A stretch of DNA of 64,000 nt from assembly GCF_023509825.1 (NCBI RefSeq), contig NZ_JAKQXY010000001.1:62001-126000 (forward strand), read 5' to 3'. Below, in pieces: positions 20,437 to 44,405 of the stretch (within the stretch, counting starts at the first letter, position 1; each line of letters begins with the position of its first letter). Source of the stretch: Spiroplasma attinicola (GTDB taxonomy: Bacteria > Bacillota_I > Bacilli_A > Mycoplasmatales > VBWQ01). The position numbers and the translations under genes are program-made. The notes below the pieces were generated by a model. That model was given only the letters and a program-made list of their open reading frames with translations. It ran no database searches and was not told the origin of the DNA.

Positions 20437-20829
20437 AAAAGAATAAAAAAATCATAAGCCACGTTCTGTATCTTGTACTAAAAATAATACAAGCGCTAAT
20501 CATTTATCTACTGAATTACTTCAGTTCTGCTTTCCATTGTTATTCTAGAAAGCAAACTCCCCTACCAAATTTGGGTTTCTCACTTGCGGGGTTTACCACG
20601 TTCCACTTCTTAAGTTTCCTTAATACTCGTCTCTATGGCACTTTTATAGATTAGAACCATATTTTAATAAAAATTAAAACTTAGGTTTTTCATCAGCCGT
20701 TAACAAATGTTACTTAAAGTTATTTTTTCCTTTAACACAAACCACTACTTTCATTTCAGAAAGTGTGAGCGTGGACTTTCCTCTACAAATTTGCATTTGC
20801 AGCGATTAGCTCATTTTTTATTCTTTACG
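20437..20829 (-). ncRNA. rnpB: RNase P RNA (type B)
   Basis: This is the catalytic RNA that trims tRNA 5' leaders. On the minus strand the conserved P4 5' half GTAGAGGAAAGTCCACGCTC is followed by GGAAACTTAAGAAGTGGAACG-type CR elements and ends with the 3' strand ACAGAACGTGGCTTATG. The terminal helix P1 is formed by AAAGAATAAAAAATGAGC near the 5' end and the complementary 3' end. Boundaries are set from P1 and the promoter and may be off by a few bases. It lies next to gpsB as in Bacillus. Confidence 0.95.
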
Positions 20830-41941: not shown

Positions 41942-42247
41942 ATGCATTTAGATGATTTAACAAAACAAGTTTGAGATAAAGCACAAGATTGTAAATGTGG
42001 TTTAGCTGATTGCGAATCAAACCATAAATTATGTGGTATTTGTAATAAAACAATTGTTTATACCGCCCATGAAAGCAATCAACCACATAGTGCTTATGCC
42101 TGAAATCGCGATCATATCTTGCCACTTTCAAAAGGTGGAAAAACCGAACTTAATAATTTACAAGCAACTCATGTTCATTGCAATCATAAAAAAGGTAATA
42201 AAGAAGAAACTATTTCAGTGCTTGAAGCAACAATTGAAGAAAAATAA
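41942..42247 (+). CDS. Small HNH endonuclease
   Basis: The 101-residue protein has a complete HNH core: NRDHILPLSKGGKTELNNLQ with Asp57-His58 and Asn71/Asn72, then HVHCNHKKGN with His79. Two zinc-binding pairs are likely, CGIC at 31-34 and Cys80 with His82, plus an unusual extra CKCGLADC cluster at 17-24. Such stand-alone HNH proteins can be restriction nucleases, homing-type nucleases or phage enzymes, and this one cannot be assigned further. Two TGA codons are Trp. It is convergent with the DUF3800 gene and may be part of the same accessory island. Confidence 0.88.
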
Positions 42248-42337
42248 AAAGAGACAATTAGCGAAATGCATTTCACACCTGTCTCTTTCAGTTGGGCAGC
42301 TTACCTGCTCTCGAAGAACACACCAGCAACTTAATTT
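42248..42337 (-). ncRNA. Structured 3' element ending in a terminator, downstream of the DUF3800 gene
   Basis: Read on the minus strand, this element begins just after the DUF3800 stop codon. It contains an outer stem (plus-strand AGTTG 42290-42294 with CAACT 42327-42331) enclosing two small hairpins (GCAG/CTGC and TCT-CGA-AGA). It ends in a 9-base-pair hairpin (AAAGAGACA / TGTCTCTTT, 42248-42256 with 42280-42288) followed on the minus strand by TTTTTATTTT. The last part is a good intrinsic terminator. The upstream stems could be a separate structured RNA or only a 3' UTR. The loop contains the palindrome GAAATGCATTTC. Confidence 0.5.
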
Positions 42338-42347
42338 CTAGAAGTAT

Positions 42348-43121
42348 TTACCATCTAGACTCTGACCAACAGCATTTAATATTTAATATATTATTATTAT
42401 ATACAACATTTGGAGATTTGCAAGCGTTTATCTTAAAGTCAAAATTTTCAAATAAATTTAATAATTTCTGAGAATGCGAGTGTTGATTTAAATATTTATT
42501 TGAAAAATTTACAATTATATCAGCAGCTTGTATACAATCTGATTTTTTTGAATCTAAATGTGAAACTTTACGAACATATATTTTCTTAGATCGTAAAAAT
42601 TTAATTATTTCATTCATTGAATAATCCTTATTTAAATAATTTAACAATATTTTGTCATCTATTTCCAGAATCTTTTCTGTATGACTATTATCTATATAAA
42701 TATTTATTGTTGATTCAGATAATATTTTATGTGTTTTTATTAAGGTTGCTAATAATAATGCTATCATTTCATTTATTTTTAATTTTGCATATTCTTCATC
42801 AAAATCTAAATCATTCAACTCATCTTTACAAGTTCATACACAACATAATGCATCAACCAAATTATATTGATTGATTAAGTTTTCTATATTTGCCTTTTTA
42901 TATGGACTTTTTTTATAATTAACATATTTTTTAGCTAAATCATTTCCTTTAATTTCATCTTTCTTCGTTATTTTATCTTTTGCATTTTTAAAATTCTTAA
43001 TAAAATTATTTCTTTTCTTTTTATTATTAAAAAGAACTCCGCCATAAAGCACATGTTTATCACTTTTATTAAGAAATTTACCACTGTCATCTAAATACAA
43101 CCAGTATTCCATAAATCTCAT
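42348..43121 (-). CDS. DUF3800-domain protein
   Basis: The 257-residue protein has the DUF3800 layout: YWLYLDDSGKF at the start with the conserved D-x-S-G, an EIKGNDLAKKY segment, a strand TINIYIDNS in the middle, and SDCIQAADIIVNFSNKY at the end. These positions recall an RNase-H-like nuclease fold, and DUF3800 proteins are often found in mobile or defence contexts and near conserved RNA structures (known from family surveys). Activity here is not proven. The ATG at 43121 has no strong ribosome-binding site; an in-frame ATG at 43112 is an alternative. It lies between two structured elements on the same strand. Confidence 0.82.
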
Positions 43122-43261
43122 CCATTCTATACCCTATTTTCATAATAATTATAAGGTTTTTTTCAAAATAAGAAAAATATTTTTTAAAAATATAAAAATC
43201 TTATTAAAATTTTTGAATTTAAATCCATTTTAATTACCACGTAAAAAAATTATTATATAAT

Positions 43262-43392
43262 AATAAAAAGAACTTACAATTACAATTCATATTCAAAGTA
43301 AGTTCTTTAAATTTAAACCCAGTTTGATAATCAAACAAAACATTATATATTACTTGCTTGCCATATCAGTTAACAATAAATAATATAATATG
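43262..43392 (-). ncRNA. Candidate structured small RNA or leader upstream of the DUF3800 gene
   Basis: No gene is found in 43122-43567; this element fills much of it. On the minus strand, a TTGACA promoter is followed by three hairpins: CATATTATATTA with TAATATATAATG (plus-strand 43381-43392 and 43341-43352, two mismatches), GTTTGATTATCAAAC (43322-43336), and a perfect 11-base-pair stem (43267-43277 with 43298-43308) followed by TTTTTATTATT. The last is an intrinsic terminator 140 bases before the DUF3800 start. It is either an independent RNA of about 130 bases or an attenuator-type leader. The remaining bases to 43567 show only AT-rich sequence and a 26-codon open frame at 43421. Confidence 0.5.
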
Positions 43393-43398
43393 CACAAA

Positions 43399-43427
43399 AT
43401 AATGATAAAAATAAATAATTATGTCAA
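43399..43427 (-). promoter_or_regulatory. Promoter candidate for the structured RNA / DUF3800 unit
   Basis: TTGACA is followed 17 bases later by CATTAT on the minus strand. The -35 is a perfect consensus; the -10 matches 4 of 6 bases. Confidence 0.5.
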
Positions 43428-43567
43428 TTGATTTGATTAATAATAAAAAATTAATTGAAAGAGAAATTAATAATTATTTTAAATTTTTTGAAAAGAATTA
43501 GTAAAATAATTATTATTAATAATAAAAAAATATAAAACTAGTTTAATAAATAGAAAGGAACTTATTT

Positions 43568-44257
43568 ATGTTCCCTTGCATATCTAAAACTAAATATTTT
43601 AATTCAGGTATACACAATGTAATTAAAAATCGTAACTATACTTGTTCTAATTGTGACACAAATCAACTTATAATAAACGAATATTTATTTTCCGGTTATT
43701 GCGATATAACAGGAAATAATCATAATGGCTGCTCCCCAAGTTCTTATGCTACTTCTCTTCAACAAGAATCTTATTTAAAAATTATTGACAAAGTTGCTTT
43801 TATCTGTAGTAATGCTAGATGTAATAAAATGTCAGTTAATAATCTAGATGGAAACCCATATTTTAATATTTCTAAGTTAAATTCTAATGAGCTTGAAATT
43901 TTAGAATTATTAAAAATAAATAATAAGGAAATTTTATATAATTTATTAAAAGAATACTTTTTTACTTTAAGTCTAAATTTTAACTCTGCTGCTACTTTAC
44001 TTGCTAGAAAAATGTTAATGCATTTTGCTTTTGAATTAGGTTGTACAGAAAAAAATAAAAACTTTGTTTATTATGTTGAATTTATTAAAAATGATGGTAC
44101 TTTAGGCAAAAAATGAAATTCTAAATTAGATCAAATTAGAAAATTAGGTAATGAAGAAGCTCATGAAGTAAAAATTGCTTCCGATGAAGAACTTAAAACT
44201 ATAAAAATTATCATGTTAGAATTAATTAACTCACATTTTAAACCAGATATAATTTAA
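43568..44257 (+). CDS. DUF4145-domain protein
   Basis: The 229-residue protein has an N-terminal Cys-rich region that looks zinc-binding (YTCSNCDTNQ, then CDITGNNHNGC, and CSNARCNKM) and a helical C-terminal DUF4145 domain with SAATLLARKMLMHFAFELG and LDQIRKLGNEEAHEVK. DUF4145 is known from proteins linked to restriction and other defence loci, and it often caps nucleases; its biochemical role is unclear. One TGA (Trp) precedes NSKLDQ. AAAGGAAC lies before the ATG. It is on the strand opposite DUF3800 and next to rpsO, which marks the edge of the accessory island. Confidence 0.78.
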
Positions 44258-44405
44258 CTTTTAACTTTATCTTTACTCATAAATTCTTGCTTTTTCTCTC
44301 ATTTTCAAGTATTATTATATTGTTAGTGACTTATTATTGTTATTATTTATCTCTCAAATAATCGCTTTAATAAGCCGAATTTTATCATCAAGGAGAGAAC
44401 AAACT

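Follow-up and report, generated by a model that had tools for sequence, protein, structure and literature searches.

In type III toxin-antitoxin systems of the ToxIN kind, a small structured RNA composed of tandem repeats neutralises a toxic RNase, and in OMEGA/TnpB-type systems the guide RNA overlaps the nuclease gene at its 3' end. Antitoxins also occur as orphans, the antidote being kept after its partner has been lost. For the RNAs associated with DUF3800 genes, we know of no established role. DUF3800 proteins are predicted to adopt an RNase H fold and have been noted as associated with putative non-coding RNAs, and a DUF3800-TPR protein has been linked to Cas12a2 (PMC10910872). With this in mind, we analysed a DUF3800 locus within a 64,000-nt stretch of Spiroplasma attinicola DNA (the window; genome G000), together with two genomes of the same genus (G001 and G002) and the citri group (G173, G175 and G178, the last being S. 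phoeniceum P40). The encoded protein matches PF12686 with E=4e-10 and 40.9 bits against a cut-off of 21. An earlier sequence-only reading had placed a promoter-to-terminator structured RNA directly upstream of this gene. The general idea was right, since DUF3800 is accompanied by such an RNA, here called R1 (42291-42370), but the location was wrong, as R1 lies 3' of the gene. We hold with high confidence that R1 is the DUF3800-associated RNA of this gene. It has no match in Rfam, DUF3800-I (RF02969) included, and is apparently undescribed, DUF3800-associated RNAs being already known as a kind.

Table 1. Features of the locus (window coordinates) and RNA types beside the DUF3800 genes of the genus
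Feature	Position	Strand	Remarks
R1 RNA core	42291-42370	-	closing stem GTTGG.CAG/CTG.CCAAC around two hairpins
Promoter TTGCAA-16-TATAAT	42396-42423	-	inside DUF3800 CDS; conserved in G002 and S. phoeniceum remnant
Intrinsic terminator of R1 and of DUF3800 mRNA	42240-42288	-	hairpin sequence differs per relative, position kept
DUF3800 protein gene	42348-43121	-	257 aa, code 4; PF12686
Promoter-like TTGTAA-16-TATAAT	43252-43279	-	candidate DUF3800 promoter; consensus match only
Upstream stretch of the sequence-only reading	43262-43427	-	TTGACA/CATTAT promoter-like site, AT-rich hairpin, 15-nt palindrome, intrinsic terminator; unconserved
Intrinsic terminator	43262-43308	-	11 bp, 20-nt loop, T-run; sole significant part of upstream stretch
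DUF4145 protein gene	43568-44257	+	divergent from DUF3800
R1 type	3' of DUF3800		window, G002
DUF3800-I type	5' of DUF3800		L115 (model), L154 (sequence)
DUF3800-I-like core	3' of DUF3800		L123; sequence only; unlisted by Rfam
B type	3' of DUF3800		L117, L129
Unclassified RNA	5' of DUF3800		L116

The R1 core (GTTGGTCAGAGTCTAGATGGTAAATACTTCTAGAAATTAAGTTGCTGGTGTGTTCTTCGAGAGCAGGTAAGCTGCCCAAC, minus strand) directly adjoins DUF3800 on the same strand in both the window and G002. Its start lies within the CDS, of which it covers the final 23 nt; the TAA stop codon falls inside its first hairpin. R1 begins ~25 nt after the promoter sequence TTGCAA-16-TATAAT (42423-42396), whose position is shared by TTGTAA...TATAAT in G002 and TTGCAA...TATAAT in S. 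phoeniceum. The GC content of R1, 44%, places it among the highest 0.23% of 80-nt windows. The consensus structure, a closing stem enclosing two hairpins and followed by the terminator hairpin, is likely: 98.5% of the alignment cells are paired, as against 37-53% when the alignment is slid, and there is modest covariation, with two compensatory pairs among five distinct sequences (UA/CG within the closing stem and GC/AU within the second hairpin). Folding of the core alone stays below significance (z=-1.07), and in a covariation test limited to those 5 sequences 55 of 500 shuffles were as good.

R1 stands out from its surroundings by conservation. When the whole neighbourhood was compared with a plasmid collection by blastn, a single place matched (42282-42369, 86%), in unannotated DNA of four S. 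citri plasmids, the only plasmids in which R1 reached a meaningful score. Between G000 and G002 the core is 88.8% identical; 80-nt windows of the CDS average 80%, only 3% of them reaching the value of R1, and the 45 nt beyond the core fall to 33%. Conservation of R1 also exceeds that of the protein: copies from the window and G002 share 85-89% identity with those of the citri group (G173, G175, G178 and the S. citri plasmids), in which the remaining DUF3800 fragment has only 38% protein identity. A covariance model of R1 run over 320 genomes returned G000, G002, G173 (three copies), G175 and G178 (three copies) at E<=3e-27, no hit elsewhere bettering 0.02. Among the other DUF3800 loci, only those of S. 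phoeniceum carry R1; there, in three copies, the gene is reduced to a C-terminal piece (residues 204-255) with the promoter and R1. A tRNA gene lies close to this remnant. Searches of phage and viral collections found neither the DUF3800 protein nor R1, and the plasmid collection yielded one weak Curtobacterium match to the protein. By sequence, the protein has no convincing relative in the PDB, and its AlphaFold model, computed from the single sequence with no alignment, is unusable (pLDDT 39).

The citri-group copies of R1 are mostly orphans, in which the RNA persists without DUF3800, and their context is mobile phage DNA. They share this behaviour with a second RNA, B, of consensus roughly GGCC.TA...GGTAAGA.C...CC, which had no Rfam match at the loci tried and whose model finds G000, G001, G002, G007 and the citri group at E<=3e-11. 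Breakage or loss of DUF3800 leaves both RNAs in place (L124, L125, L041 and G175, the last with no PF12686 match at all). In G007, B lies directly 3' of a frameshifted DUF3800 gene; in S. phoeniceum (L124) it lies 3' of one with a premature stop, between flanking genes that we take to encode portal and terminase, and phage DNA of S. citri has B in a similar slot without DUF3800. In the S. citri plasmids, such as CP047438 (L041:2426-2585), and in G173 and G175, B and R1 stand in tandem with no DUF3800, after a phage tail gene (PHROG 7064) and before DUF4065/SocA-like genes. Just upstream of B, these S. citri loci also contain a GC-richer folded element, C. DUF4065/SocA-like genes of G002, S. 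citri and S. phoeniceum (L148, L131, L136) have B-type RNAs as neighbours too, and DUF3800 may not be the only gene with which this RNA type associates.

The three genus genomes hold four (G000), one (G001) and three (G002) DUF3800 genes, and a putative GC-richer RNA with a terminator adjoins all eight. These RNAs are of several types (Table 1). In 161 nt searched at a paralogue in this genome (L115), DUF3800-I stays under its gathering score with 36.6 bits and E=1.6e-4, and the L154 copy shows a paired change from AACCGTAATCTAAGTACGG to AACCGTGATGTAAGCACGG. RNAalifold applied to MAFFT-aligned DUF3800-I copies recovered only 8 pairs. A further DUF3800 gene of G000 (L116, G000:C1:267500-272000, reverse strand) has on its 5' side, at ~1680-1795, a GC-rich hairpin RNA with a terminator, for which neither a relative nor an Rfam match was found. 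At L104:1148-1428, a DUF3800-I RNA is followed directly, on the same strand, by an FMN-riboswitch-like element. The pairing of every DUF3800 gene of the genus with a putative RNA and the survival of RNAs beyond the protein in phages offer a direct way to ask whether such RNAs act as antidote, guide or leader, and the orphan, stacked RNAs of phages are the part that deserves attention.

We lean, cautiously, towards a reading in which R1 is the partner RNA of the DUF3800 nuclease, starts inside its CDS and acts as an antidote, the upstream stretch being an unconserved spacer. R1 would be a three-way-junction RNA of ~80 nt plus terminator, with its start inside the DUF3800 CDS, made separately from the CDS-internal promoter and/or cut from the 3' end of the mRNA. 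Its target would be the DUF3800 protein, predicted to be a nuclease with an RNase H fold (PMC10910872), which R1 would bind and restrain. The antidote mechanism itself, which draws on analogy and on the RNAs found as orphans, is put forward tentatively. It is favoured because the RNA is kept after loss of the protein, a pattern that would be less readily expected of a leader or a guide. Extended to the whole set, DUF3800 and its RNAs could form an interchangeable RNA-protein system of Spiroplasma and its phages, with varied RNA types at the same place beside homologous DUF3800 proteins, and protein-less phages carrying sets of RNAs (B and R1, perhaps with a third element) that would serve as antidotes to host DUF3800 or as decoys for it; we regard this broader scheme as rather unlikely.

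It is doubtful that R1 serves instead as a guide or scaffold, such that an RNase H-fold DUF3800 complex would cut nucleic acid and the orphan copies of phages would be decoys against host DUF3800. Such a role would accord with an RNA beside every DUF3800 gene of the genus, with the tandem of orphan B and R1 that phages carry, and with the tie between DUF3800-TPR and Cas12a2 and the predicted RNase H-like nature of DUF3800 (PMC10910872). The R1 core, however, is nearly invariant and holds no variable guide-like segment, no repeat array accompanies it, and the DUF3800 protein has no match in PADLOC. Improbable, too, is that R1 is a mere conserved 3' UTR element for mRNA processing or stability, with no function in trans: its overlap with the stop codon and the terminator that follows are what one would expect of such an element, but S. 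phoeniceum (three copies) and phage DNA of S. citri retain R1 and its promoter in the absence of the gene.

The stretch to which the sequence-only reading had pointed was described accurately as far as its letters go. A perfect TTGACA is present on the minus strand (43427-43422), followed 17 nt later by a weak -10, CATTAT, for a promoter match of 10/12; the series of hairpins is there, the long AT-rich one at 43393-43340, as are the 15-mer GTTTGATTATCAAAC (43336-43322), a 7+1+7 palindrome, the 11-bp terminator and the 446-base gap between the DUF3800 and DUF4145 genes (43122-43567). Within the stretch, only the terminator exceeds chance, and the apparent structure stems from it: 43262-43312 folds with z=-3.7 (2 of 1000 shuffles as good), the 77 nt preceding the terminator with z=-1.5 (71 of 1000, ~7%), and the whole of 43262-43427 with z=-1.4 (18 of 200 in one run, 92 of 1000 in another). 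The palindrome was rejected as a special site, being one of 32 perfect 7+1+7 palindromes in the window, five of which have at least two G/C per arm. Promoter-like sites are not commoner than in shuffles (28 vs 25.6). The window has five TTGACA promoters, of which only this one is followed by a terminator within 250 nt, and ~38 comparable terminators in its 64 kb; we estimate that roughly 0.3 such pairs would be expected per window by chance. The candidate promoter at 43279-43252, whose -35 falls in the terminator's 3' arm and whose -10 lies past the terminator, makes the attenuator reading, although conceivable, unnecessary.

The proposal that this stretch belongs to the Rfam DUF3800 motifs failed, as no model matched, those of the DUF3800 families included. 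Searched alone (221 nt, E<=10), it gave only chance matches to unrelated families; DUF3800-I was not found at E<=10 in either 221 nt or 1401 nt, and membership in that family was rejected for want of a match to its covariance model. Other DUF3800 motifs, e.g. DUF3800-IX (RF02968), gave no match at E<=10 over 42200-43600. As a positive control, this library detects DUF3800-I next to many of the other DUF3800 genes of mollicutes: at L103, L099 and L115, and at 8 of the 20 DUF3800 loci fetched from the phylum, with more at a looser threshold. Across the window, Rfam reaches its gathering score just once, with an RNase P class B RNA (20450-20818, minus strand). A DNA search of the family for homologous upstream regions found none, but only short AT-rich matches; the best, of 44 nt in G002 (L003), was rejected as a homologue, since it falls in a long ORF that we take to be DnaN-like.

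The surroundings of the stretch are variable. G002 keeps the order rpsO - DUF3800 - HNH side, with one extra gene beside HNH, and lacks both DUF4145 and the stretch, homology resuming at about window position 43209. In G001 a different gene, of 446 aa and presumably ParB-like, lies beside rpsO. The accessory genes 5' of rpsO (window 43210-44320) thus vary across the three genus genomes: DUF3800 with DUF4145, DUF3800, and the ParB-like gene. Given this variability in G001 and G002, the stretch is part of a segment found only in G000. DUF4145 had no relative in any family genome searched, and shows a weak match to PADLOC PD-T7-4 (E=0.016). We thus consider, with good confidence, that the stretch is not a DUF3800-associated RNA. 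It would be an AT-rich spacer bearing a promoter and a terminator, with no relative found, in the segment that carries DUF4145, and its terminator most likely halts transcription from the DUF4145 side ahead of DUF3800. It is very improbable that the stretch represents another DUF3800 RNA, whether evolving fast or in decay, or functions as an attenuator leader: its layout of promoter, hairpins and terminator (~130 nt, directly 5', same strand) resembles DUF3800-I in several mollicutes, and its transcript part with the terminator reaches z=-2.7, but that significance resides in the terminator, its GC is only 19% (window mean 26%), the pair may arise by chance, neither Rfam nor DNA searches matched it, and it is absent from G002, where DUF3800 and R1 are intact. 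Inspection from promoter to terminator in sequence alone may thus point to the wrong side of a gene.

Among described RNAs, R1 resembles DUF3800-I, which is likewise short, lies beside DUF3800 genes (5' or 3') in mollicutes, and has two hairpins in an outer stem followed by an intrinsic terminator; R1 differs in lacking the first hairpin and the GUUUAAGCG...UGUAA core and in overlapping the end of the CDS. Other Rfam DUF3800 motifs, such as DUF3800-IX, share the kind of gene neighbourhood, with no model match to R1. With OMEGA/TnpB-type guide RNAs, R1 has in common the overlap with the 3' end of a nuclease gene, yet no transposon ends are seen at R1, it has no guide segment, and the protein is unrelated. 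From type III toxin-antitoxin systems of the ToxIN kind it differs in having no tandem repeats in the window, in its unrelated protein and in an inhibition that is putative, and it shares with them a small structured RNA next to a ribonuclease-like protein, the RNA being kept when the protein is lost.
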